Assembly: GCA_024276355.1 (NCBI GenBank)
Contig: JAJRXJ010000298.1
Coordinates: 1-33,225 of the forward strand
Source of the DNA: Actinomycetes bacterium
Lineage (GTDB): Bacteria; Actinomycetota; Acidimicrobiia; Acidimicrobiales; Aldehydirespiratoraceae
DNA: 33,225 nt
Direction: 5' to 3'
Made by a program: the position numbers and the translations under genes. The number at the start of each line of letters is the position of its first letter. The stretch's first letter is position 1. Shown in pieces: positions 6,362 through 33,157 of this stretch. The notes beneath the pieces are model-generated. The model was not told the DNA's origin. It did not search any database and saw only the letters and a program-made list of their open reading frames with translations.

Positions 6362-8012
6362 CGGATGTATCCGTTCCTGCGTGGTTGGTCATGAACGCCA
6401 TCTCATCGGCGAAATGTTGCTCGGTGGAGGCGATTTCGAACTTGCGCTGCTCGCTGCTCCAACCAAGTCTCGCGGCCATTCGGTCGGCAACCGCAATCGA
6501 CAACAGGGCTCGTTCGGCGGGTGCGAACCAGGCCGCTCTCGTGCGTCGGTAGACAACGTCTTCGAGCCTGGTAGCCGCCTCGATGTCGATGGCCCAGTCG
6601 ATCTCGCCGACAACCACACGTCCGTCCGTCACCACCGGTTCGGATCCCATCGCCAGCACGGAATCGCTGTCGGAGCCGTACAACCGCACGAGTCGTCGGG
6701 CGACCGGGGACGACACCCCGGTGCGGGTTTGAAGCCCCTCGGCCCAGGCTTCGAGATCGCGGCCAGTGCCGGCACCCGGTATCGCAGCATTTCCCGGGCC
6801 ACCGCGCAGGGATGTGCCGAGCGCCTTCCCGATCTGCTCGACGACCTCCTCGGCCATGTGTCGGAATCCGGTGAGTTTGCCGCCGGCAATGTTGATCATT
6901 CCTCCGGGCCCGACCCAAACTTCGTCCTTGCGGGAGATCTCCTTCGGGTCCTTCTTGTCCTGTGCGACCAACGGCCTCACTCCGGACCAGGCGGCGATCA
7001 CCTCGCTCGGATCGATCGGGTCGGTGTCGAAATAGCGGGTGATCGGATCGAGCAGATAGTCGATGTCGGTGGCATCGATCTCGGGCCACAGCGGACGGTT
7101 GCCGTTGTAGCTCGTGTCGGTGGTGCCGATGTAGACAACATCGCCTCGGGGGATGGCGAATATCGAACGCTTGTCGGTGGTGTTGAGAATCACGAGATTC
7201 TCGACCGGTAGACGCTCGCGAGGCAGGACCGCGTGGACGCCCTTGGAGAGGTGAAGACGGGTTCGCGGCGGGTCGACCTCCATGCGGGCGAGGCTTTCCA
7301 CCCACGGACCGGCGGCGTTCACGATGACGCTGCCGGCGACATCGACGACCCGTCCGCTGATGGCACATTCCGCGGTGACCCCGATGATCCGGCCCGCCTC
7401 CCGGCGAAGGCCGGTGACCCTCAGCATGTTGGCGGCGACGGCCCCGGTGGCCGCGGCGGCGCGCAGCACTCCGATGACGAGCCGGGCGTCGTCGGTGAGA
7501 TATTCGCGATAGGCGATCGCCCACCGGTAGCGGTCGGATCTCAGCAGCGGCTCCTCAACCGCCAGGTCGTCGGCATCCCAGGTGGTGTGGCGATCCCGGT
7601 CTTCGACCGCACCGAGTTTTTCGTAGGTTCCGATACCGGTCCGGAAAGTGGTCAGCGATGCCCTCCCCTTGGCCGGAACCACCATCCAGCACGGCTCCGC
7701 GAGATGTGGGGCCATCGCATGGACCGCTTTGCGTTCGAGTGCCGTGCGACGGACCAGGTTGACCTCGCCCATGGCCAGGTATCTCAACCCACCGTGAATC
7801 AGTTTCGAGGAGCGCGACGAGGTGCCGGCGGCGAAGTCGTCGGCTTCGATCACCGCCACGCTCAAGCCACGGGCGGAGGCATCACGGGCCACGCCGGCGC
7901 CGGTGATGCCGCCTCCGATCACGACTACGTCGAACGACTCTGATTCGAGGGTGTCGAGAAGACCGTCACGTGAGCTCGGCGTGAGAGTCGCCGTGGAGTC
8001 GGCCATGGTCAA
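6354..8012 (-). CDS. glpD: Glycerol-3-phosphate dehydrogenase (FAD-dependent)
   Basis: A 552-residue FAD-dependent glycerol-3-phosphate dehydrogenase, which oxidises sn-glycerol-3-phosphate to dihydroxyacetone phosphate and passes electrons to quinone at the membrane. The dinucleotide-binding motif VVIGGGITGAGVARDA is near residue 30, followed by TSSRSSKLIHGGLRYL, then SIFAIPRGDVVYIGTTD, SGVRPL, and INIAGGKLTGFRHMAEE, which carry the substrate-contact arginines and lysine of the family. The C-terminal domain has the usual VVYRRTRAAWF helix. Length is normal. It starts three bases after the doxX stop and overlaps the alkyl-DHAP synthase-like gene by 8 bases. Its product DHAP is the backbone that the downstream enzyme family uses, which may explain the grouping. 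Confidence 0.95.
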   Translation of the reverse strand: MTMADSTATLTPSSRDGLLDTLESESFDVVVIGGGITGAGVARDASARGLSVAVIEADDFAAGTSSRSSKLIHGGLRYLAMGEVNLVRRTALERKAVHAMAPHLAEPCWMVVPAKGRASLTTFRTGIGTYEKLGAVEDRDRHTTWDADDLAVEEPLLRSDRYRWAIAYREYLTDDARLVIGVLRAAAATGAVAANMLRVTGLRREAGRIIGVTAECAISGRVVDVAGSVIVNAAGPWVESLARMEVDPPRTRLHLSKGVHAVLPRERLPVENLVILNTTDKRSIFAIPRGDVVYIGTTDTSYNGNRPLWPEIDATDIDYLLDPITRYFDTDPIDPSEVIAAWSGVRPLVAQDKKDPKEISRKDEVWVGPGGMINIAGGKLTGFRHMAEEVVEQIGKALGTSLRGGPGNAAIPGAGTGRDLEAWAEGLQTRTGVSSPVARRLVRLYGSDSDSVLAMGSEPVVTDGRVVVGEIDWAIDIEAATRLEDVVYRRTRAAWFAPAERALLSIAVADRMAARLGWSSEQRKFEIASTEQHFADEMAFMTNHAGTDTSDE

Positions 8013-11265: not shown

Positions 11266-11336
11266 GCGGGTGTGGTTCAATGGTAGAACATCAGCTTCCC
11301 AAGCTGATAACGCGGGTTCGATTCCCGTCACCCGCT
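11266..11336 (+). tRNA. tRNA-Gly (anticodon CCC)
   Basis: A full cloverleaf is visible. The acceptor stem is GCGGGTG (11266-11272) paired with CACCCGC (11329-11335), then T and an encoded CCA (11337-11339). The D-arm contains GGTTCAATGGTAGAAC. The anticodon stem is TCAGC/GCTGA around loop TTCCCAA, placing CCC at 11298-11300. The T-arm is CGGGTTCGATTCCCG. Glycine identity follows from the CCC anticodon. A possible -10 box TACGAT lies at 11249-11254. The first copy of the palindromic repeat starts 6 bases after the CCA. Confidence 0.96.
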
Positions 11337-11345
11337 CCAAGCAAA

Positions 11346-11411
11346 CCCGGCCGGTTTTGTGAACGTTTGGAGTCCCAAACGGGACTCGAACCGTTCACAA
11401 AACCGGCCGGG
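11346..11411. repeat. Long palindromic repeat, copy 1
   Basis: Two 31-base arms (11346-11376 and 11381-11411) around an AAAC loop pair at 29 of 31 positions. The left arm contains GTTTTGTGAACGTTTGG followed by AGTCCC, which is identical in all three copies in the window. This copy lies between tRNA-Gly and the serpin gene. No T-run follows it, so a simple intrinsic terminator is not obvious. Confidence 0.9.
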
Positions 11412-11453
11412 AGGGCGGCTCGCCGGGAACCAACCCGACATCGGGGTCGTCGT

Positions 11454-12689
11454 ATGACCATGACCAGATCAATTGCCTTGCTGCTCGGGTTGGCGGTGAT
11501 CGGTGCGGCTTGCGGGTCGACCAACACGGAGGTGACCAACGCGGCTGGACCCGTGGCTTCGGATGCCACTCGTGCAACGCCTGACCCTGATGCCCCGATC
11601 GGCCAGTGGATCGCCGGGATCAACGATGCCGGCTGGGACTTTCACCAGCACCTCGAGGGCAACGCCGTGTCTAGCCCGGTGAGTATCGGTATCGCATTCA
11701 GTCTGGCTCGTGCGGGCGCGTCGCCGGCCACCGCGGTCGTGCTTGATAAAATCTTCGCTTTCCCCGCCGAGCGACGTGACGCCGCCGCCAACCTGGCGGA
11801 TCTCATGTTGGCCGATTCGTCGATTCAACCCACGACCCTTGAGGTGGCCAACCGTCTCTTCCCTGACGTTGGTTTCTCCCCGCTGCCGGCTTTCATGGAC
11901 ACCGCCGCCTCTGACTACGGGGCCACCATCGAAACTGTCGCTACGAGCAACGGTTCCGCTGCAGCCGAGGTAATCAACAACTGGGTGTCGGACACCACTC
12001 GCGGGCTGATTCCTACGATCGTCGACGGAAGTGCCATCCAGGATCAGCAGCTTGCTCTGGTCAACACGGTCTATCTCAAGGCCGACTGGGCCAATCCGTT
12101 TCCACCCGATCTCACCATCGACTCGACGTTCACCACCGGCGACGGTTCGACTGTTGCCGCGATGTTCATGCACGATTTCGTTCCCGTCATGAGGCGTTTC
12201 GTGCGTCTCGACAATGCCGACGCGGTCGAACTCCCCTACGAGGGAGACGACCTGGCCATGTGGATCGTGGTCCCGCACGAGGCTGATGGCCTCGCCGTCG
12301 TGGAAGCATCTTTCGATGCAGGGGCCCTGGCCGATCTCTCCGCAGTCTCCGAGGAAGGGATGGTCGATCTCTCACTGCCGAAGTGGGAGCAAACTCTGCC
12401 TCCGAGCGACCTCTTCGAATGGCTCTGCCCGCTCGGGTTTTGTGCCGGCGCCGGCTTCGACGGCATAGCCCCAGGCTTGTTCATCACCAGCGCAGTACAC
12501 GGCGCGAAGGTGATCGTCGATGAGAAGGGCACCGAAGCCGCTGCGGTGACCTCAATGACGTTCGCAGTCTCCGGTCCTCCCCCAGCCGATCTGACAGTTG
12601 TGGCCGACCACCCTTTCCTCTGGGCGATAGTCCACAAGGAGACCGGCGCGTTGGTGTTCGTTGGCCGACTGGTGAACCCAGCGGCGTGA
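11454..12689 (+). CDS. Serpin family protein, predicted lipoprotein
   Basis: A 411-residue secreted protease inhibitor. The N-terminus, MTMTRSIALLLGLAVIGAAC, ends in a lipobox with Cys20, so the mature protein is likely lipid-anchored outside the membrane. The serpin body shows SSPVSIGIAFSLARAGA, a central LALVNTVYLKADWANPF, and a C-terminal DHPFLWAIV followed by GALVFVGRLVNP. The reactive-centre hinge EKGTEAAAVTS matches the small-residue pattern of inhibitory serpins. Counting from the hinge glutamate as P17 puts P1-P1' near Ser-Gly, after FAV. ATG 11460, two codons in, is an alternative start. Bacterial serpins are uncommon; the target protease is unknown. The gene lies between repeat copies 1 and 2. 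Confidence 0.92.
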   Translation: MTMTRSIALLLGLAVIGAACGSTNTEVTNAAGPVASDATRATPDPDAPIGQWIAGINDAGWDFHQHLEGNAVSSPVSIGIAFSLARAGASPATAVVLDKIFAFPAERRDAAANLADLMLADSSIQPTTLEVANRLFPDVGFSPLPAFMDTAASDYGATIETVATSNGSAAAEVINNWVSDTTRGLIPTIVDGSAIQDQQLALVNTVYLKADWANPFPPDLTIDSTFTTGDGSTVAAMFMHDFVPVMRRFVRLDNADAVELPYEGDDLAMWIVVPHEADGLAVVEASFDAGALADLSAVSEEGMVDLSLPKWEQTLPPSDLFEWLCPLGFCAGAGFDGIAPGLFITSAVHGAKVIVDEKGTEAAAVTSMTFAVSGPPPADLTVVADHPFLWAIVHKETGALVFVGRLVNPAA

Positions 12690-12723
12690 GGGGCCAACCG
12701 CGGAGATGATCGCACCGCGCCGC

Positions 12724-13467
12724 TCACGGTTTTCGCCATACCGACACGTGAGACGTGCTTTCGCTGGTGAACGGGTCGCGCTGCCAACCGCTCCAGCGCT
12801 CCGCGAGGTCGAGTCCGGCGATGCGGGCCATGAGGTCGTACTCGGCCGGCCAGGCGTAGCGGTGGGGTGAGTCGAAGATCTCGGCCTTCCCGTCGGAGAT
12901 CCAGTGGTGGTGTGAGGTCAACATCTGGTTGACGACGTCGTACTCGTCGATACCGATGTGGTCGGCAGACACGTCGAACGGCACGAATCTCTCGCCGGGA
13001 GGAAGCCTGCGCAAGGCCGGCACCATCACCTCGATCACGAAGCACCCGCCGCTGCGAAGATGGGCAGCAGCGTTGCGGAAACACTCAACCTGTGCGTCCT
13101 GGGAACGCAGGTTCATGATCGTGTTGAAGACCAGATACACAAGGCTGAACTCACCGTCGACGCGCGTGTTCGCCATGTCGCCGATGGTCACCGGAACCAG
13201 CTCGGCACCTGGCTTCGTCATCATCTGATCCACCATGGGCTGCGACATCTCGATGCCGTGCACATCCACGCCGTGAGCACTCAGAGCCAACGCCACCCGC
13301 CCGGTGCCACCCGCGAATTCGAGGGCTCGACCGCTATCTACCAGACCCGCCAGGAACTCGACGGTAGGGCCCAGAACGTCCGGTTCGTACAATTCGTGGC
13401 ACGAGGCGTCGTAATCGGCTGCCACCCCCTCGCCCCACAACTCACGCGGCCCGGTCGTTTCCGTCAT
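12724..13467 (-). CDS. Class I SAM-dependent methyltransferase
   Basis: A 247-residue methyltransferase of the Rossmann type. The SAM-binding motif is ALEFAGGTGRVALALS (near residue 48), followed by VHGIEMSQPMVDQM for the second strand, with FSLVYLVFNTIMNL as the post-I motif and LRSGGCFVIEV as the last conserved strand. The substrate cannot be read from sequence. It starts 35 bases from repeat copy 2 and is convergent with the serpin gene. The upstream gene on this strand is the helicase, whose stop lies inside the repeat. Confidence 0.9.
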   Translation of the reverse strand: MTETTGPRELWGEGVAADYDASCHELYEPDVLGPTVEFLAGLVDSGRALEFAGGTGRVALALSAHGVDVHGIEMSQPMVDQMMTKPGAELVPVTIGDMANTRVDGEFSLVYLVFNTIMNLRSQDAQVECFRNAAAHLRSGGCFVIEVMVPALRRLPPGERFVPFDVSADHIGIDEYDVVNQMLTSHHHWISDGKAEIFDSPHRYAWPAEYDLMARIAGLDLAERWSGWQRDPFTSESTSHVSVWRKP

Positions 13468-13501
13468 TCAGCAAGTCTCCCACCTCCACCACCACCCTTC
13501 C

Positions 13502-13557
13502 CCGGTTTTGTGAACGTTTGGAGTCCCGTTTGGGACTCGAAAGGTTCACAAATCCGG
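13502..13557. repeat. Long palindromic repeat, copy 2
   Basis: Arms of 26 bases (13502-13527 and 13532-13557) around a GTTT loop pair at 23 of 26 positions. The left arm carries the same GTTTTGTGAACGTTTGG plus AGTCCC as copies 1 and 3. The stop codon and last few codons of the helicase gene lie in the right arm. It sits between two minus-strand genes. Confidence 0.88.
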
Positions 13558-16428
13558 ATTGGTGCGGTGTTGGAGCTCGACGGCAAGGTGGACCGCGGCC
13601 TGTTCCGGGTCGTCTATCCAACGACTCTGGAACGCGTCGGTCAGGGTCCAGCCGGCGCGCAGCAGGGTGAGGTGACGCTCGATGTGGGCGTCAACACCAT
13701 CCGGGTGGACGGTGCATTCGATTCCGAAGGCCGCCGCCCCTTGACCGAGCGCGATATCGACGGTCCAGCCCGCCACCGGATAGTTGACGACCACCCGGCG
13801 GTCCGGGCCACTCAACGCATCGGCCATTCGCCGAACCCACGGTGATGCCTCACCACGTCGCTCCACGAATACCGGTGGGTCGTCGACGAACCTGAAATAT
13901 TCAGCAAGCAAGCCCCTCGGCAGGTCGCCGGGGTCGAACGAATGAATGAGCACGATCCGCCGCCGCGCCCGCGTGACCATCACATTGAACAGGTTGCGGT
14001 CCTCGATGAACCGAAGCGCCTGACCAAGATCGTCAGGGCCGATTCCGAGCGAGATGATCACCGTGTCCCTCTCGGTTCCCTGGAAGCTGTGGACGGTGCC
14101 GGTCCGCAGCCCGAACTGTCGGATCTGGGCCAGCGAGAACCGGTCGAGCACCATCTCGACCATCGCGTCGGCATGCTTGCGGAAGGGGGTGACCACTCCG
14201 ATTGTGCCGGTGTCGAGCCGGTAGCCGAGATCGAGGATCAGATCGCGAACGACGTCCACTTCGGCTTGGTTGACCCCATCCACACGCTTCCCCTCCACCC
14301 GAATCTGGTCGATCGCGTCTTGACCCTCCACCGCCGGATGCTGGGTCATCAGGCGAATCTCGTCGTCGTAGAAGTGTTTCGCCGAGAAGTCGATGAGATG
14401 TGGCACCGACCTGAAATGCTCATCGAGCCATACCACCTCAGAAGCCGCCGCGGCGACATCGAAGATGCTGTTGCGGCGCACATCAAGGAGGCGCCGAAGC
14501 GTGGGATCTTCGAGACCCACCCTGTCGAAGAGATTCTCCATCTGATCGTCGGCGACGAACGACACGTGACGTAGCTGCTTGGGGTCGCCGACGACCATCA
14601 CCCGCCGAGCTCGACACAACGCACCCGCCGCGTGGATCTGATCGATCTGGCTGGCCTCGTCGAGTATCAGCAGATCGAAGAGCTCGGGAATCACCGGCAG
14701 CGTGTGTTCAACCTCGTTGACGGTCCCGACCCATAGCGGAAGAAGGTCGAGGAAGTCATCACTTTCGATGTCCGACAGCAGCGCGGATCGGCGCGCCTGA
14801 CCCGTCCGCAGGACGTTGGCCAACGCAGCAACGCTGGCTCGCGCCCGGCGACGGCGCAACCGGCCCGTGTGTCGCCGTCGCAGGTCCACCAGGTCGGCCA
14901 GATCCGAGCGCCAGGCATCGTCGGCTTCGGCCAGATCAGCCCAGAATGCGTCGAGGCTGACACCACCCGCAACCAACGCCTGCTCGACATCCCTGGCGGC
15001 CAGAGCGGCCCGCACGGCTCTGGTGATCTCGTCGACTTCTGCCGACGACCGTGCATCGACGAGGCGGCGCAGCTCGCGTTGCGCCTTCCTTGATCGCCAA
15101 CGCCCAACTCGGCTCGTTGAGTCGTCGATGCGGGAAAGCAACTCGGCAAGCCGTTGATGGTCGGTGCCGGAACGCAATACTCCGGGGGCATCAGCGGTGA
15201 ACATCGCCAGCGAATCACGGTGACGGAGCCCCTCGTCGATCACCAGTTCTCTTTCGAGTGCCGAACGAATGATCCGAAGGACCTCGTCCCGACGCTCCCG
15301 TGACTTGGACTCCCGGGCCTCGGCTTCAGCGACCAGACGATCGGAGGGGGCCTGAAGCCGACCAGCGGAAAGTCGTTCGGCCACCTCGAGACGATGCTCG
15401 GCGCGACCGAATCTCACGTGGGGCGGCGTCGGATACCGGTCGAGAACCTCCGAAACGCTCTCAGCGGCGTGGTCGGATTGTGTGGCGATGAGAACCGCTT
15501 CTCCACGAGAAATCGCGTCGATCGCCGCGGCCACCACCAGGTGTGTCTTGCCGGTTCCCGGTGGCCCGGACACCACGCTGACCTCAGCACAGCGGGCTTG
15601 GGCGATCGCAGCGCGCTGGCGAGCGTTGGTCGGCAGAGTCGTCTGGAGTTCCGAGCCGCTCTCGTCGAGCTCGGCACTTATCGGATCCTTGCCGTAAAGG
15701 TGGGCGAACGCCGTGCCGTCCGACACCTCACCGGTCCACCGCTTCAGGCCCGCGGCAATGGTCGTCGGGGCGTCAGGTGCAACCACGAAGACGGCGGTGC
15801 CCGGACCGAGATACAACACGTCGGATTCATGACGCGACCTGGCCTTGACCTGGCGGGCCAGCGAGAGTGGGTTCGTGTCGACACCGATCAGTTCAGGATG
15901 GGGCAGACCCAATCGGGCGCACAGCTTTTCGACAACGACGGTGCCGACTCCACGTGCGGCCACCTTGTCGAGCTCGTCTTCGGTCATCACCTCGGCGAAG
16001 ATCGGGTGCACCTCAACATCGGACATCCACTCGGGCTGCACCGTGTTGAGCCCGGCAGCAGGATGTATTCGCACGCGCCTCGAGATGACCGGCAGCAGGA
16101 TCGGATCCAGTGAAGCACCCTCGCGGTGTCGGCCGACCAGCCACATGGCACCGGCACGAAGCGAGTCCTGCTGAGGATCCAGCGCATCGATCGATGCCAA
16201 TCTTTCCAGACCCTCGACCCGCATCTGTTGGGGATACGAATAGGGGTCGAATCCCGGAACGGAATCATCCATCGCGAAGGCCAGACCATCGGCGAACCTC
16301 TCCACTGACCCACGCCCGTACCATCCACGCGGCGGCGGGCGCACGTGAGAGTTGTCGATCAGGGAATGCTTGCCCAGCCAGACGTAGTCGCGAGGCGAAG
16401 AGACCGCCTCGAGGGAGGCCGACACCAT
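13546..16428 (-). CDS. UPF1-like SF1 helicase with C-terminal nuclease-like domain
   Basis: A 960-residue protein. Residues 1-260 are not recognised. The SF1 helicase core shows Walker A SGPPGTGKTH (287-296), LLILDEASQ (586-594), GDPKQLRH (614-621), TGTVHSFQGTERDTV (776-790) and NVMVTRARRRIVLI (815-828). A long Arg/Ala-rich helical insert lies between motifs I and II (about 360-560). The last 105 residues read ASPWVRRM, WTVDIAL, FGIECTVH, RHLTLLRAGW, like a PD-(D/E)xK endonuclease of the Vsr/DUF559 type, but the usual ExK appears as E-C-T. ATG 16428 is the best start seen; about 66 upstream in-frame codons lack coding character. A 7-base inverted repeat lies just before it. The stop lies within repeat copy 2. 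A role in nucleic-acid repair or defence is inference. Confidence 0.88.
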   Translation of the reverse strand: MVSASLEAVSSPRDYVWLGKHSLIDNSHVRPPPRGWYGRGSVERFADGLAFAMDDSVPGFDPYSYPQQMRVEGLERLASIDALDPQQDSLRAGAMWLVGRHREGASLDPILLPVISRRVRIHPAAGLNTVQPEWMSDVEVHPIFAEVMTEDELDKVAARGVGTVVVEKLCARLGLPHPELIGVDTNPLSLARQVKARSRHESDVLYLGPGTAVFVVAPDAPTTIAAGLKRWTGEVSDGTAFAHLYGKDPISAELDESGSELQTTLPTNARQRAAIAQARCAEVSVVSGPPGTGKTHLVVAAAIDAISRGEAVLIATQSDHAAESVSEVLDRYPTPPHVRFGRAEHRLEVAERLSAGRLQAPSDRLVAEAEARESKSRERRDEVLRIIRSALERELVIDEGLRHRDSLAMFTADAPGVLRSGTDHQRLAELLSRIDDSTSRVGRWRSRKAQRELRRLVDARSSAEVDEITRAVRAALAARDVEQALVAGGVSLDAFWADLAEADDAWRSDLADLVDLRRRHTGRLRRRRARASVAALANVLRTGQARRSALLSDIESDDFLDLLPLWVGTVNEVEHTLPVIPELFDLLILDEASQIDQIHAAGALCRARRVMVVGDPKQLRHVSFVADDQMENLFDRVGLEDPTLRRLLDVRRNSIFDVAAAASEVVWLDEHFRSVPHLIDFSAKHFYDDEIRLMTQHPAVEGQDAIDQIRVEGKRVDGVNQAEVDVVRDLILDLGYRLDTGTIGVVTPFRKHADAMVEMVLDRFSLAQIRQFGLRTGTVHSFQGTERDTVIISLGIGPDDLGQALRFIEDRNLFNVMVTRARRRIVLIHSFDPGDLPRGLLAEYFRFVDDPPVFVERRGEASPWVRRMADALSGPDRRVVVNYPVAGWTVDIALGQGAAAFGIECTVHPDGVDAHIERHLTLLRAGWTLTDAFQSRWIDDPEQAAVHLAVELQHRTNPDL

Positions 16429-16439
16429 CGCCCGGCGAG

Positions 16440-16459
16440 TCCTGCGAGATAACGCAGGA
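16440..16459. promoter_or_regulatory. Perfect 7-base inverted repeat before the helicase gene
   Basis: TCCTGCG and CGCAGGA flank a 6-base spacer, AGATAA on the plus strand (TTATCT on the minus strand), 12 bases upstream of the helicase ATG. TTATCT resembles a -10 box, so this could be an operator over the promoter or a 5' hairpin. There is no experimental support. Confidence 0.4.
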
Positions 16460-16531
16460 TGGCCTCCGGTGATGACACGGCCCGAGGGTAGCGCACCGGG
16501 AATGTCAGTCAGAGGCTCCGGCGAGGCCGGA

Positions 16532-17020
16532 CTATTCCGGAGGCACGGTTTGGAGTCGGTGAATCTGACCCTCGAAGTGCTCACGGCTGATCTCGCCCCT
16601 GTTGAGGGCGCGCTCAAGCAGAGCAACGAGCAGCTCGTACTGCTCCATCATTCGAGGGCCCCTGCTGTTCACACGCACGCCGCCATCCGCCAACGTCACC
16701 TTGTACTCGGCGTAGAAATGAGGCTTCTTCTCTCGGCCCAGATTCCGGAGCAACAACAGGGGACTCACCAGGGCAGAGATAAAGAGCCTCTGCGCACTAC
16801 GTTCCAGGCCGAAGGCTTGGACGATCGTGGGCGAGAATCTCTTGATCCCCCGAGCTTTATGGGCAGCCACGACCAACCCCTCGATCTCGCGGCTGACCTG
16901 TTCCCGGGTTCTCTCCGTCGCAATGTCGATGTACGGCACCAACGCCCCCCAACAGATGCATGCAACAGGCGCAAAGTACACGTCATGACGGAGTTGGGCT
17001 AGTACTTGACCATGCAACAC
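16532..17020 (-). CDS. Hypothetical protein with SHOCT-like C-terminus
   Basis: A protein of up to 162 residues that I do not recognise as a whole. It has a hydrophobic stretch near the N-terminus (VYFAPVACICWGALVPYI), a middle region with GLERSAQRLFISALVSPLLLL that could be a second membrane segment, and a C-terminal ELLVALLERALNRGEIS plus REHFEGQIHRL. The end resembles SHOCT domains, short helical oligomerisation motifs with the pattern Leu-x2-Leu...GxIs-x-x-x-Phe. ATG 17020 is the longest start and overlaps the divergent LLM gene by 9 bases; a GTG at 16981 would avoid that. The amino-acid composition looks more coding-like than the opposite strand. Confidence is moderate. Confidence 0.5.
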   Translation of the reverse strand: MLHGQVLAQLRHDVYFAPVACICWGALVPYIDIATERTREQVSREIEGLVVAAHKARGIKRFSPTIVQAFGLERSAQRLFISALVSPLLLLRNLGREKKPHFYAEYKVTLADGGVRVNSRGPRMMEQYELLVALLERALNRGEISREHFEGQIHRLQTVPPE

Positions 17021-17890
17021 GACCTCAAGTTCGGATGGCTCTCACCGGTGATCGGCAACCGTTGGAGCGATCACAAGCCGATCGTGGTCCATCAGGTCGA
17101 CCACATCCTGCCGACCGTCACCCAACACTTCGACTCGGTGTGGATCGCCGATCACTTCTACGGATTCGACGCCAGGACCGACCCGTTCATGGAGGCATGG
17201 ACCACCCTCACCTGGATCGCCGCCAGGTTCGACAACGTTGAGCTCTGCCATCATGTACTGGGTCACGGATACCGACCGCCGGCGCTCACCGCGAAGATGG
17301 CCGCCACACTGCAGGTGTTCTCCAAGGGTCGTTTCATCCTGGGAATCGGCGCCGGCTGGCGGAGCGACGAATACGAGGCCTACGGCTACGACTTCCCGAA
17401 GCCGTCGGTTCGTTTCGCCCAGCTCGAGGAGGTGATCGAGATCTGTCGCCGCATGTGGACCGAGGATCTCCCGAGCTTTCAGGGTGAGCATTACCGGATC
17501 ACCGAAGCGGCCGCTCCCCCGCTGCCCGACAAGGTGCCGCCGATCTGCATCGGCGCTTCCGGCGAGAAGGTCGGGCTGCCCCTCGTGGGGCGTCAAGCCG
17601 ACATGTGGAACTGCTCGTTGCGATCCCCCTCCGACTGGCAGCGCAAGCTCGGAATCGTGCGCGCGTCCGCCGAGTCCGCCGGCCGCGATCCCGACGACAT
17701 CGCGCTCAGCACCACCGTCGAGAAGGCGCTGCCGGAATCCGACTCCGAGTCGGCCGAACTGCTTGAGCTCCTGTCCGGTCACCGCGACCTCGGCATCAGC
17801 CACTTCGTGCTGGACTTCGGCAACCCGCTCGACACCGAACCGATCCTGCGCTTCGCCGAGCAGGTAATCACCCCCATGCGAGCCAGTTGA
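17012..17890 (+). CDS. LLM class flavin-dependent oxidoreductase, probably F420-type
   Basis: A 292-residue luciferase-like monooxygenase-fold protein. Typical elements are FDSVWIADHF (40-49), the strand FILGIGAGW (108-116), EYEAYGYDFP (120-129), RFAQLEEVIEICRRMWTED, and PPICIGASGEK before VGRQADMWN. The LGIGAGW and AYG(Y)DFP features are common in F420-dependent actinobacterial members, which oxidise or reduce alcohols, aldehydes or other metabolites; the cofactor call is inference. ATG 17012 is preferred over a TTG at 17006. A near -10 box TAGTAC lies 6 bases before the ATG. The gene ends 7 bases before repeat copy 3. Confidence 0.9.
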   Translation: MQHDLKFGWLSPVIGNRWSDHKPIVVHQVDHILPTVTQHFDSVWIADHFYGFDARTDPFMEAWTTLTWIAARFDNVELCHHVLGHGYRPPALTAKMAATLQVFSKGRFILGIGAGWRSDEYEAYGYDFPKPSVRFAQLEEVIEICRRMWTEDLPSFQGEHYRITEAAAPPLPDKVPPICIGASGEKVGLPLVGRQADMWNCSLRSPSDWQRKLGIVRASAESAGRDPDDIALSTTVEKALPESDSESAELLELLSGHRDLGISHFVLDFGNPLDTEPILRFAEQVITPMRAS

Positions 17891-17897
17891 CCCTCCA

Positions 17898-17963
17898 CCG
17901 CCAGTTTTGTGAACGTTTGGAGTCCCATTTGGGAGTCCAAACGTTCACAAAACCGGCTGGCGG
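17898..17963. repeat. Long palindromic repeat, copy 3
   Basis: Left arm 17898-17926, loop ATTT, right arm 17931-17963. The inner 23 bases pair with one mismatch, and the outer CCGCCA/TGGCGG also pair. The right arm has four extra bases, giving a bulge. The inner left arm, GTTTTGTGAACGTTTGG plus AGTCCC, is identical to copies 1 and 2. It fills the gap between two convergent genes. Confidence 0.9.
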
Positions 17964-17965
17964 GG

Positions 17966-19009
17966 TCAGGATTCGGTGAGGTCGTCGAGGGCTGGGCGCA
18001 CGCCGTGGTCGGGAGAGTCGAACGCCAGGCGCCGGTCGAGGATCGTGTAGGCGATGAAGCCGACCGGGATCGGTAGCCAGAAGTTGACCAAACGGTAGGC
18101 GACGACCCCGACGGCCGCCACCGACGCCGGCGCGCCGAAAGCCACCAGAGTCGGGATGAGGACCGCTTCGATCACGCCCAGGCCGCCCGGAGTGACGGGC
18201 ACCGCAGCCATCACGTTGGCCAGCCCGTAGGCCACGAGCAGTCCGACGATCCCGGGCGAATGGCCGAATGCAGTGAGAGCAACCCACAACGCCGCCGCAT
18301 CAAGCAACCAGTTGATCGCCGCGATGACCGATCCTCGCCGGAGCCTCACGGGATCCTCAAGCAGGTTCCGGAGCTGGGTGGCAACGGTTCGGATTCCCCG
18401 TTCAACCGCGGCCTCCTCGATCCTGGGGAGGCGCGACAGCAACGCCGCCGCCTTCAACGCAAACGCGTCCTCGCCCCGCATCAGGCCGATCACCGCTGTT
18501 GCCGATGCGACCATGAGGATCGCTCCTACCGCGGCCGCGGCCGCATAGCCCGCCTGGAAGCCCCTGACCGGAATCGACCACACGAGTGCCGCCCAAAGGA
18601 TCAGGTTGAGGATGATCGCAGATCCGATCGCCTGCGCCGCCAACGCGAATCCCAGCTCCGTTCCCGGCACACCGGCACGTCCGTACAGCCGGTAATTGAC
18701 GGCGACCGTGGTGGCGGCGCCGCCGGGCACCACATGGCTGAATCCGAGTGACGCCAGAGTGACTCCCGTGCAGGTTCCCAGACCGGGTCGATGTTCGTCG
18801 CTGAGAAACACCCTGGTCAGCTCGGCGTAGGCGATGATCGCCAGCGTCTCCAGCAGCACCACGAACACCACCCGTATCGGATTGATGTCACCAACCGTAT
18901 GCAGGGCCTTGCGTGCGCCGCCGATCTGCGGGATCAGGAAAACCTGGATCACGAACGCGACAATCAGAAGCCTGATCACGGTCGCCAATCTGATTTTCTT
19001 GTTGCTCAC
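17966..19009 (-). CDS. Flippase-like membrane protein (YbhN / LPG synthase transmembrane family)
   Basis: A 347-residue polytopic membrane protein of the UPF0104/YbhN group, related to the flippase domain of lysylphosphatidylglycerol synthase. Family marks are SHVVPGGAATTVAVNYRLY near residue 90, a central PRIEEAAVERG loop, and the C-terminal VTPGGLGVIEAVLI with AYRLVNFWLPIPVGF. Such proteins are thought to move or handle lipids across the membrane; the substrate is unknown. The start codon is GTG 19009 with GGAT upstream. A second family member lies at 30608-31705. The gene is convergent with the LLM oxidoreductase, with repeat copy 3 between them. Confidence 0.88.
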   Translation of the reverse strand: MSNKKIRLATVIRLLIVAFVIQVFLIPQIGGARKALHTVGDINPIRVVFVVLLETLAIIAYAELTRVFLSDEHRPGLGTCTGVTLASLGFSHVVPGGAATTVAVNYRLYGRAGVPGTELGFALAAQAIGSAIILNLILWAALVWSIPVRGFQAGYAAAAAVGAILMVASATAVIGLMRGEDAFALKAAALLSRLPRIEEAAVERGIRTVATQLRNLLEDPVRLRRGSVIAAINWLLDAAALWVALTAFGHSPGIVGLLVAYGLANVMAAVPVTPGGLGVIEAVLIPTLVAFGAPASVAAVGVVAYRLVNFWLPIPVGFIAYTILDRRLAFDSPDHGVRPALDDLTES

Positions 19010-29109: not shown

Positions 29110-29139
29110 CCCGGTGAGGGACCATTCAGGCGGCACGAA

Positions 29140-29145
29140 TATCAT
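29140..29145 (+). promoter_or_regulatory. -10 box TATCAT of lipoprotein paralogue 1
   Basis: TATCAT is 7 bases before ATG 29153, and no ribosome-binding site is visible between them. Confidence 0.55.
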
Positions 29146-29152
29146 CGACCCC

Positions 29153-30538
29153 ATGCGCAGGATCAAGGCTCTGATGATCGTCGCCGCTCTCGCTCTGGTC
29201 GCGGCCTCGTGTGGCAAGGACGGAAAGCCCCTCGGCAGCGGCCCCCCACCCACTCTGGCGCCCACGACCGAAACGGTCGCCCAATCCGAGACCGCCACCA
29301 CCGCCGCCCCGACGACGGAAGCGACCACAACCGCGCCCGTGGAGTCCACCACATCGACCACCACCTCCACTCCCGACAACCCCCCTACCGGGCCTGATGC
29401 CGCAGCGGTGGCAACCGCTCTGGCGAGCGGATGGGACGCGGTCACGCTGAGGCCGGGCGACACGGGTATGCCCGACAGGATCGTCGACAACGCCGGCCTG
29501 CAGGTGATCGTGGGGAGTTCGTTCTCAGGGTGCTGTTTCGAGTACGGCTCACTGTTCGTGCTCCAGGACGACGGCACGTGGGCCGATGTCACCGACCCGG
29601 CCATGCAACCGCTCGACCCGCTCCCCGCCGACGCCCAGCCGTTCATCGGCGACGGTCCTTACGACCTCACGGTGATCGACGGTTCGTTCGTGGCTCCCGG
29701 CGCCACCATCTTCGATCCCGGCACCGGCGAACAGCCGGTCCCGTCGCCACGCATCTGGACCAGTCCGGACGGCACCGCTTGGGCGTCTCATCGGATTGCG
29801 GGCGAGGGAACCGTCACCTCGGTGGTCAGCACCTCCAGTGGTGAGATCGCCATCATCGACGACGGCGCCGGAACCAACTCCCTGTGGCGATCTGCCGATG
29901 GCCAGACCTGGGCAGTCGACCCGACGATCGACATCACCGCCGCCGAGGACAAGTCGTCGGGCGATTTCAGTTTCGGCTCCACCGATCGGGTCGACCGGGT
30001 CGGTGAAGTCATCGTGATCAGCTCCGACGTCGGGCCGGCCCTGTTGGTGTCGGATGACGACGGGATCACATGGCATTCGCCCGACGCCGCCATGTCAGCC
30101 GGCAGCTTCGTGGTCACCAACGGCGGCGCGCTGGTGCTCACACCGGACCAGATCTGGCGCACATCCAACGGGACCGATTGGACACCGATCGGCGGCACTC
30201 CAACACCTCTGGTGAGCGATTCGGGAGTAAGCACCGATCCGTTCGGATTGGTGGCCATCGACATCGGGAGTTCCACGATCCTGTGGCCCGGTGGCGATCC
30301 CTTCGGTCCCAGCGGAAGCCGTTTCTGGGTGGCCGATGAGTCGTCGGAATGGCTCGAGGTGCCGGTCGACCCGGTGTTCGCGCCAGTGGCCGAAGGCCCG
30401 ATCTTCATCACCGACATGATCCTCGGGGTCGACGGAAGAGTTGAGGCCATCGGCACGGTTCCCGTTCCTTTCGAGGGCAACAAGCCGTTGAGCGACTACA
30501 TGATCTGGACCCACTCGACGCTCATCTCCGACCAGTGA
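29153..30538 (+). CDS. Predicted lipoprotein with Asp-box-like repeats, paralogue 1
   Basis: A 461-residue lipoprotein: signal LMIVAALALVAASC (Cys20), a long Thr/Pro/Ala linker to about residue 85, then an extracellular domain. The domain starts with VATALASGWDAVTLRPGD, has a double-cysteine SGCCFEYGSLFV, and contains repeats of the type WTSPDGTAW, WRSADGQTW, VSDDDGITW and WRTSNGTDW, which resemble Asp-box (BNR) beta-propeller repeats. It ends with FWVADESSEW and DYMIWTH. ATG 29153 is 7 bases after TATCAT (29140-29145). The paralogue at 31781-33157 has the same plan. Asp-box propellers occur in sialidases and in non-enzymatic proteins, so no activity is inferred. Confidence 0.88.
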   Translation: MRRIKALMIVAALALVAASCGKDGKPLGSGPPPTLAPTTETVAQSETATTAAPTTEATTTAPVESTTSTTTSTPDNPPTGPDAAAVATALASGWDAVTLRPGDTGMPDRIVDNAGLQVIVGSSFSGCCFEYGSLFVLQDDGTWADVTDPAMQPLDPLPADAQPFIGDGPYDLTVIDGSFVAPGATIFDPGTGEQPVPSPRIWTSPDGTAWASHRIAGEGTVTSVVSTSSGEIAIIDDGAGTNSLWRSADGQTWAVDPTIDITAAEDKSSGDFSFGSTDRVDRVGEVIVISSDVGPALLVSDDDGITWHSPDAAMSAGSFVVTNGGALVLTPDQIWRTSNGTDWTPIGGTPTPLVSDSGVSTDPFGLVAIDIGSSTILWPGGDPFGPSGSRFWVADESSEWLEVPVDPVFAPVAEGPIFITDMILGVDGRVEAIGTVPVPFEGNKPLSDYMIWTHSTLISDQ

Positions 30539-31780: not shown

Positions 31781-33157
31781 ATGTCGGGTGGACCCACACG
31801 CTTCGGACCGTTTCGGTTGACTCACCTTCTGGTAGTGGTCGCCATGACGGCCGCGGCCTGCGGTGGATCCAGCGGCATCACGACCTCAACATCCCCCACG
31901 ACCAGCACGTCGCCACCAACGACGGTCGCCACCACCTCCACAACAACCACCACAACCACGGCCCAGCCGACCACAGCTCCCTCGACCACGGCCTTCACGA
32001 CAACCGCGGCCCCGTCTACCACGGCAGCCCCGGCCGGGCTCACCGCCACCGACGTCGCCGCGGCTCTCGCATCCGGTTGGACGGCAACAACACTGCGCGC
32101 CAACGACAACGGCGGACCCACACTGTGGGCCGACAACGGGTCCACCCAGGTGGTCGTGGGCGACGCGCTCCGCGGATGCTGTTTCAAGCACACAGCGTTG
32201 TTCGTGAACGATTCGGGCACATGGCAGGACCTGGCGGACACAACCGATCTGGGTCTGTCCCCGACGATGAGCCCCGTGCCCACGCTGGACGGAGGAGTAT
32301 GGGATCTCACCATCGACGGAACCGACTTCTTGGCCGTCGGCGCCACGCAGGACGAACCCGACCAGCTCCTGACCCCCACCGTTTGGCGTTCTTCCGACGG
32401 GCGCACGTGGACCCCCATGGTGATGACCGATACCGGCTTCCGGTTCGACTCGGTGGTTTCCAACGGTTCGATTCTGATCGCCACCGTGCAGTTCGATCGC
32501 CGGGGGATACAGATCTGGGAGTCGAGCGACGGCGGGTCCACATGGACGCCACAAGACTCAATCGATGTGAGCCAAGCCATCAGCGACGTGCTCGGAGCCG
32601 GCATGTCCGAGGAGCCCACCAGCGTCGACCGGATCGGTGATCGTCTGGTGGTCCACACCGACAGCGGCTACCCGTTGTTCCAGTCGCCCGACAACGGAGT
32701 CTCGTGGACCGACCAACTCGGTGAGTTCGGGGGCGGAAGCGTCCTCTTCGGCGAGGGAGTGGCGATGAGATTCACATCGGCCGGCACCCACCGCACCACC
32801 GATGGCGAGAGCTGGGAACAGATCCCGGGCCCACCCCCCGACCTGTTCGGCTGCGACTGCGACTTCACCGACCTGAACCACGTTCACGCCGCCCAGTTGG
32901 GTGACGTCACCGTCTTGTGGAATTCGGCCGACTACTCGTCGACCGGACACTTCTGGGTGGCCGACCCCGACACGCCATGGATCCCGGTCGAACTCGACCC
33001 GGCCTTCGGCCCAGTGCCCGAGGGCCCCACGTCTGTGAGTCGGATCGGGGTGGCGAGTGACGGTTCGATCATCGCCATCGGCTCGATCCCCGTACCGATC
33101 AACCTGAACAAGCCCACCGCTGACTACCTGATCTGGACCCACCCGCCGGTGGGTTGA
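31781..33157 (+). CDS. Predicted lipoprotein with Asp-box-like repeats, paralogue 2
   Basis: A 458-residue lipoprotein closely related in plan to the one at 29153-30538: signal LLVVVAMTAAAC (Cys27), a Thr-dominated linker of about 60 residues in low-complexity DNA, then DVAAALASGWTATTLRANDN, RGCCFKHTALFV, and repeats WRSSDGRTW, ESSDGGSTW, SPDNGVSW and TTDGESW. The end, FWVADPDTPW, GSIPVPINLNKPTADYLIWTH, aligns with the paralogue's end. A pair of CDC cysteines (GCDCDF) is extra here. ATG 31781 is 8 bases after TACCAT (31767-31772). The likely role is a surface beta-propeller of unknown ligand. Confidence 0.88.
   Translation: MSGGPTRFGPFRLTHLLVVVAMTAAACGGSSGITTSTSPTTSTSPPTTVATTSTTTTTTTAQPTTAPSTTAFTTTAAPSTTAAPAGLTATDVAAALASGWTATTLRANDNGGPTLWADNGSTQVVVGDALRGCCFKHTALFVNDSGTWQDLADTTDLGLSPTMSPVPTLDGGVWDLTIDGTDFLAVGATQDEPDQLLTPTVWRSSDGRTWTPMVMTDTGFRFDSVVSNGSILIATVQFDRRGIQIWESSDGGSTWTPQDSIDVSQAISDVLGAGMSEEPTSVDRIGDRLVVHTDSGYPLFQSPDNGVSWTDQLGEFGGGSVLFGEGVAMRFTSAGTHRTTDGESWEQIPGPPPDLFGCDCDFTDLNHVHAAQLGDVTVLWNSADYSSTGHFWVADPDTPWIPVELDPAFGPVPEGPTSVSRIGVASDGSIIAIGSIPVPINLNKPTADYLIWTHPPVG

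Follow-up and report, generated by a model that had tools for sequence, protein, structure and literature searches.

Three long palindromes lie at gene boundaries in the window analysed here, a stretch of 33,225 nucleotides from an Acidimicrobiales metagenome-assembled genome (MAG; GenBank assembly GCA_024276355.1, contig JAJRXJ010000298.1), and they raise the question of what kind of element they represent and by what means it was spread. The palindromes were found to belong to a dispersed family of near-identical hairpins, two of which bracket a gene for a protein with an AbiEi-type winged helix and a Vsr-like nuclease domain, and long palindromes were found to be concentrated at this nuclease family across Actinobacteria. 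They are probably selfish elements similar to repetitive extragenic palindromic (REP) sequences and their REP-associated tyrosine transposases (RAYTs), doubling as gene-end hairpins, with the AbiEi-Vsr nuclease in place of the RAYT.

Genome-wide distribution and form of the palindromes

Repeat and palindrome scans of the window recovered all three palindromes at the positions given in a first-pass annotation (Table 1), and their contexts after a tRNA, over a helicase stop codon and between convergent genes were as described there. They form the longest repeat family of the window (66 nt, with 80–85% identity to the reference copy), and the 23-base arm GTTTTGTGAACGTTTGGAGTCCC, already reported as common to them, is identical in all three copies, starting at 11354, 13505 and 17904. 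The palindrome scan delimited the copies at 11346-11411, 13502-13557 and 17900-17957, the longer span of copy 3 (17898-17963) including an additional outer stem with one mismatch, and the repeat search detected fold-back arms for copies 1 and 3. The hairpins are highly stable on both strands, with folding energies of -60, -37 and -53/-57 kcal/mol for copies 1, 2 and 3, respectively (z-scores of about -10, -6 and -10/-11; 0/200 shuffles as stable). A search of the window against Rfam returned only the tRNA, a weak mir-969 match at a hairpin being dismissed as chance.

The whole genome (G000; 3.6 Mb in 388 contigs, 90% complete; contigs and loci are given below as C and L numbers) was searched for the family core, GGTTTTGTGAACGTTTGGAGTCCC-NNNN-GGGACTCCAAACGTTCACAAAACC. 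The arm was matched 39 times in each orientation, and all matches paired to give 39 hairpins; a reversed-pattern control gave no match. As C270:42 repeats the site C179:16672, there are about 38 distinct sites, so that the proposed family extends far beyond the window and proved to be neither a set of only three copies nor a collection of unrelated terminators. When 444 kb were scanned de novo for palindromes, almost every strong one belonged to the core family. The starts of contigs C126, C270 and C301 fold back on themselves, with mirror arms that match perfectly over 66 bp, and appear to be artefacts of assembly; contigs also start at or fold back on palindromes in the congener OFTM81 (G424; C210, C43 and C105). 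Because assembly breaks at palindromes, counts from MAGs probably fall short of the true copy numbers. Hairpin telomeres, considered on account of the fold-backs, were ruled out, since contigs join at a palindrome (C179/C270).

Usable flanks were available for 36 copies. The arms are complementary throughout in 22 of these, and in 19 both arms match the consensus. Outside the core, the outer stem differs from copy to copy while its two sides match, with a mean paired run of 5.03 bp, compared with 2.84 bp after swapping of the right flanks (0/5000). Within the core, the same change is present in both arms at L103, L111, L116:5656 and L119:5197, and both-sided changes number 60 versus 26 in shuffles; in an unrelated family of congeners (see below), the corresponding values are 51 and 26. 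Such paired changes can reflect selection for the hairpin, copying from arm to arm or insertion into existing hairpins. A different, operator-like palindrome resembling GTGAACGATCGTTCAC lies near two copies (L116:18050-18080 and L093:3290-3310); it precedes the gene at L116:18088, as well as the orthologues of that gene, and has the motif GTGAACG in common with the core.

Placement at gene ends and use of the arm as a stop codon

Based on gene calls from our own codon model, the copies lie at gene boundaries except for one contig-edge case, with 13 in convergent, 19 in tandem and none in divergent contexts (0/32), even though about 34% of the sampled intergenic bases lie in divergent gaps. A TGA inside the arm serves as the stop codon of 21 flanking genes, among them the helicase gene of the window, at an offset of -8 and always in the frame GTT TTG TGA; the sole exception to this offset is a call at L119 that reads further in (-24). 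Read in the direction of the hairpin, the 30-nt flanks on its two sides contain 51% C and 16–18% G, compared with about 36% C and 30% G at other gene ends.

These features could also be explained if selection kept the palindromes as two-way terminators or 3'-end protectors, with their likeness maintained by recombination or gene conversion and the nuclease merely flanked by terminators. This explanation, which is considered unlikely, would account for the location at gene ends and avoidance of divergent gaps, the great stability on both strands, the C-rich flanks toward the hairpin and the retention of a palindrome with a different core at some sites across species. However, G+C-rich hairpins are present at the three sites of the window but a T-run is absent after each of them, and a terminator scan matched 0/3, so that an intrinsic terminator with a T-run was ruled out. 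Moreover, the C-rich bias is also found on the side away from the end of a tandem gene and thus belongs to the palindrome rather than to gene ends in general.

Core differences and empty sites in related genomes

The core has no match in 396 further genomes of the order, and it was absent from 50 other genomes of the family save for two isolated, unpaired partial matches. Searches of GTDB r220 (85k species genomes), IMG/VR, phages and plasmids likewise gave no match, although the genome of the window may itself be left out there. The congeners OFTM89 (G423) and OFTM81 carry a CCGAAATC...GATTTCGG palindrome family instead, whose core has no apparent homology to that of G000; two CCGAAA-like matches in G000 lie inside coding sequence and are not hairpins. 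The complete genome G006 contains a GCGTGAACAAACTGCGGAA palindrome family with 29 copies and, besides this, a second long-palindrome family, GGGGTCGGATACGTTTCGTCG... (L217:12038-12089 and L159:4159-4216).

Seven relatives lack a palindrome at both C43:756 and C43:1991, and their genes on either side stop only a few codons away from the G000 ends, which indicates that the G000 lineage acquired these copies. Empty orthologous sites, suggested as a check in the first-pass annotation, were thereby obtained, and they argue against upkeep of transcript-end hairpins by selection, which also leaves unexplained why the copies of one genome are nearly identical over 50 bp and absent from congeners. At C16:9372, C326:3474, C326:4490 and C343:17957, the congeners carry a palindrome of their own family at the same place; the last site came from a palindrome search and is a biased example.

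A nuclease gene bracketed by the palindromes

Two copies located 1 kb apart (C326:3474 and C326:4490) bracket a gene for a protein of 312 amino acids that combines the Pfam AbiEi_4 winged helix with a Vsr-like MTES_1575/DUF559 nuclease domain. The gene (L112:3560-4498) is neighboured by ETF-alpha and IclR genes and has no adjoining AbiEii toxin gene, and the palindrome-nuclease-palindrome unit codes for no known transposase. In the predicted structure (mean pLDDT, the per-residue confidence score, of 77), the N-terminal half matches the AbiEi antitoxin 6y8q (Foldseek, E 2e-8), as it does AbiEi by sequence, and residues D241, E252, D254, H259 and D268 are invariant in the alignment. Palindrome pairs around other genes (SDR, MDMPI and luciferase-like) were discarded as candidates, as these genes have no common mobile function.

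The congener counterpart of the C326 nuclease is only 31% identical, whereas the genes on both sides are well conserved, and in OFTM89 and OFTM81 it is flanked by CCGAAATC palindromes. Another AbiEi-Vsr gene lies between AGGTTTTCTGAGCG palindromes in OFTM10 (G422), and a palindrome pair in G006, 1,069 bp apart, was predicted to bracket such a gene and was confirmed to do so. The arrangement is present, with unrelated cores, in three lineages besides G000. In the relative G418, the genes that flank the C326 unit lie directly side by side, the nuclease and both palindromes being absent, and the locus represents an empty site of the whole unit. A second nuclease of G000 (C106) is bracketed by a second palindrome family, CCCCCGCTTTTSTGACCTCG, which is likewise scattered over the genome (other copies lie on C140, C158, C231, C278, C288 and C301) and partly arranged as 60-bp tandem arrays; similarly, a second nuclease of OFTM10 is bracketed by CCGTTCTGGTGTAGCC. 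Since a single genome can thus house two nucleases, each with palindromes of its own, the pairing goes with the individual nuclease and not only with the species.

The junction between the ETF-alpha and IclR genes holds the AbiEi-Vsr nuclease in G000, OFTM89 and OFTM81, a DUF222-HNH gene with a palindrome in OFTM10, a DUF4143 ATPase gene in G407, a gene for a 379-residue protein in G412 and nothing in G418 (L290, L295, L296 and L297). This variety suggests a hotspot where nuclease genes insert.

Association of palindromes and nucleases across Actinobacteria

Flank statistics were obtained for 80 nuclease loci from many actinobacterial orders, which had been collected from GTDB by a protein-pattern search blind to palindromes. 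Strict long palindromes numbered 51 in 61.9 kb of nuclease-flank windows and 7 in the remaining 444.8 kb, making them about 50 times denser beside the nuclease than elsewhere in these loci, a concentration at one nuclease family that a role as transcript-end hairpins leaves unexplained. With a sensitive inverted-repeat search, a palindrome was detected on at least one side in 59/80 loci and on both sides in 30/80. Arm similarity rises with nuclease identity (0/2000 permutations), a trend that persists within Mycobacteriaceae, Micromonospora and Pseudonocardiales.

In many loci, a palindrome is located 60–120 bp 5' of the nuclease start. Inverted repeats in the promoters of AbiEi antitoxins are bound by the antitoxins themselves, and the palindromes could by analogy be operators of the AbiEi-like protein, serving autoregulation and a dispersed regulon while the nuclease domain has another role. 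Such a function is highly improbable, as promoter-type (divergent) gaps are avoided by the copies in G000, a second palindrome is found at the end of the nuclease gene, where it overlaps the stop codon in 36/44 loci with a downstream palindrome, and near-perfect palindromes of 50–60 bp far exceed the usual length of an operator.

Comparison with known systems

REP/REPIN sequences with their RAYTs (TnpA-REP, Y1 HUH enzymes) resemble the present system in being short intergenic palindromes with tens of copies and lineage-specific cores, and in having one single-copy or nearly single-copy enzyme gene between members of the family (PMC3116915, PMC8266576). They differ from it in the enzyme, which here is an AbiEi and Vsr-like nuclease and not of the Y1 type, and in the palindromes, which here are near-perfect and 50–70 bp long, compared with 20–40 nt for REPs. 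The GTAG/CGTC tetranucleotide tag that defines the foot of a REP (PMC3733652) was not seen at the stem foot of the core family, where CCGG and variable sequences are found and the arms comprise 25–31 or more nt. Because of the different form of the arms and the lack of a Y1 enzyme, the family was not assigned to REP/RAYT. The initial description as a REP-like or non-autonomous mobile palindrome family thus stands with respect to copy number, gene-end location, empty orthologous sites and co-changing arms, but the candidate autonomous partner on C326 places the family outside the RAYT-linked REP class.

The copies might alternatively be classical miniature inverted-repeat transposable elements (MITEs) or REPs that are moved by an ordinary transposase missing from the 90% complete assembly. 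The fragmentation of the MAG into 388 contigs that break at palindromes leaves room for this, and the copies are dispersed, non-coding and intergenic, as such elements would be. It is nevertheless very unlikely: the lack of a RAYT-type transposase, noted for the window, holds for the entire MAG, and no Y1/RAYT match (PF01797) was obtained in three congeners, G407 or G002 either, while the sole Y1_Tnp of the complete genome G006 has no palindrome of that genome's family beside it. In addition, no solitary arm was found at the end of a longer element, each arm being half of a hairpin.

Among Vsr-like nucleases, the EDxHD homing endonuclease I-Bth0305I (3r3p) has a catalytic domain whose fold the C-terminal domain weakly resembles; it differs in that the gene studied here encodes an AbiEi-type N-terminus, is flanked by palindromes, is accompanied by many dispersed nuclease-free copies and lies in no intron or intein. 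Type IV toxin-antitoxin systems share the AbiEi part, by sequence and structure, but in the present case it is fused to a nuclease and, in G000, the neighbours are ETF-alpha and IclR genes rather than an AbiEii toxin gene.

Mycobacterial interspersed repetitive units (MIRUs) are short dispersed elements at gene ends that are able to supply a stop codon; they are not long palindromes, and they are not known to have a nuclease partner. In the former respects they are like the family analysed here, which differs in both of the latter. MIRUs are listed in a survey of species-specific dispersed stem-loops that includes mycobacterial and corynebacterial families (Cozzuto et al. 2008; PMC2267715). 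These stem-loops are comparable in their species-specific dispersal, but the survey names neither an AbiEi/DUF559 partner nor Acidimicrobiia.

Proposed mechanism of spread

None of the rival explanations, although each fits some of the observations, accounts for the clustering of palindromes at the nuclease family. A two-part selfish element is the preferred and simplest explanation. Its mobile unit would be the palindrome of 50–70 bp, the dispersed hairpins being non-autonomous copies, and the autonomous form would consist of palindrome, nuclease gene and palindrome. We infer that the AbiEi-type winged helix binds the palindrome arms and that the C-terminal domain, of the Vsr/EDxHD type known from homing endonucleases, cuts at or near the palindrome or its cruciform; repair or strand transfer would then place palindrome copies near the 3' ends of genes. 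Insertions there would be tolerated because the arm holds an in-frame TGA (GTT TTG TGA) and the hairpin could end transcripts in both directions without a U-tract. With its own core for each nuclease lineage, the element would show core turnover between species. The chances are about even that the palindromes constitute an undescribed class of selfish DNA in Actinobacteria, in which stop-bearing palindromes are bound at their arms by their own AbiEi-Vsr nuclease and are copied, together with its gene, into 3' ends.

Several findings weigh against such an element. Nuclease genes without palindromes occur in OFTM89 (C58) and G006 (C1:2902110), and 21/80 loci lack a palindrome in the sensitive inverted-repeat search. 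The C-terminal match to I-Bth0305I is weak (Foldseek E 6e-3, target template-modelling score 0.73–0.75), and where the upstream palindrome is the only one, it could serve as an operator in the manner of AbiEi. Species relatedness may contribute to the correlation between arms and nucleases, and in mycobacteria a strict split of the nucleases by palindrome type was not clean when identity over the full length was used. Finally, no movement event was seen in comparisons that lacked a strain-level pair with and without a copy, and target-site duplications were not resolvable with relatives only about 74% identical.

The pairing of enzyme and palindrome appears to be new, none having been described in the open-access literature searched, while the concept of dispersed palindromes served by an enzyme of their own is not new. 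How most bacterial families of short palindromic repeats spread is unexplained, with RAYTs accounting for some proteobacterial ones; the nuclease named here is a specific and testable partner for palindromes across Actinobacteria. The same reading would suggest a role for a nuclease family known as DUF559, MTES_1575 or 'AbiEi' and often annotated as defence, and it would provide an example of a mobile element whose stop codons and hairpins fit it for settling at gene ends.

Features of the window and associated loci

Table 1. Positions of the palindromes, nuclease units and neighbouring genes (window coordinates unless a locus is given).
Feature	Position	Strand	Remarks
Palindrome copy 1	11346..11411		31-nt arms, 4-nt loop AAAC; outer stem CCCGGCCG/CGGCCGGG; between tRNA-Gly (CCC), 7 nt away, and serpin gene
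Palindrome copy 2	13502..13557		26-nt arms, loop GTTT; gives minus-strand helicase gene its TGA stop
Palindrome copy 3	17898..17963		between convergent genes; core 13-14 nt from both stops
tRNA-Gly (CCC)	11266..11339	+	immediately 5' of copy 1
Superfamily-1 helicase-like gene (AAA_11/AAA_12)	13546..16428	-	terminates within copy 2
Helicase stop codon TGA	13546..13548	-	inside arm (...GAT TTG TGA), the -8 position
Luciferase-like monooxygenase gene	17012..17890	+	convergent neighbour left of copy 3
Lysylphosphatidylglycerol synthase-type membrane protein gene	17966..19009	-	convergent neighbour right of copy 3
Palindrome-nuclease-palindrome unit	L112:3470-4545 (contig C326)		~1.1 kb
CCCCCGCTTTTSTGACCTCG palindromes bracketing second AbiEi-Vsr nuclease	L292:6278-6338 and 7274-7333 (G000 C106)		
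Further CCCCCGCTTTTSTGACCTCG copies	L101:4153-4213; L100:2542-2662; L105:6142-6202; L107:6036-6156; L292:5251-5430		

After the same tRNA-Gly, the congener G379 has an apparent integrase gene and no palindrome (L150:12516-12760), so that this tRNA end serves different mobile elements. The serpin (serine protease inhibitor) gene that directly follows copy 1 (11454-12689) is of a kind unusual in bacteria. Two further genes of the window (29114-30538 and 31835-33157) encode similar, secreted-looking proteins with common ...DYxIWTHP... C-termini and are probably a tandem pair of paralogues.

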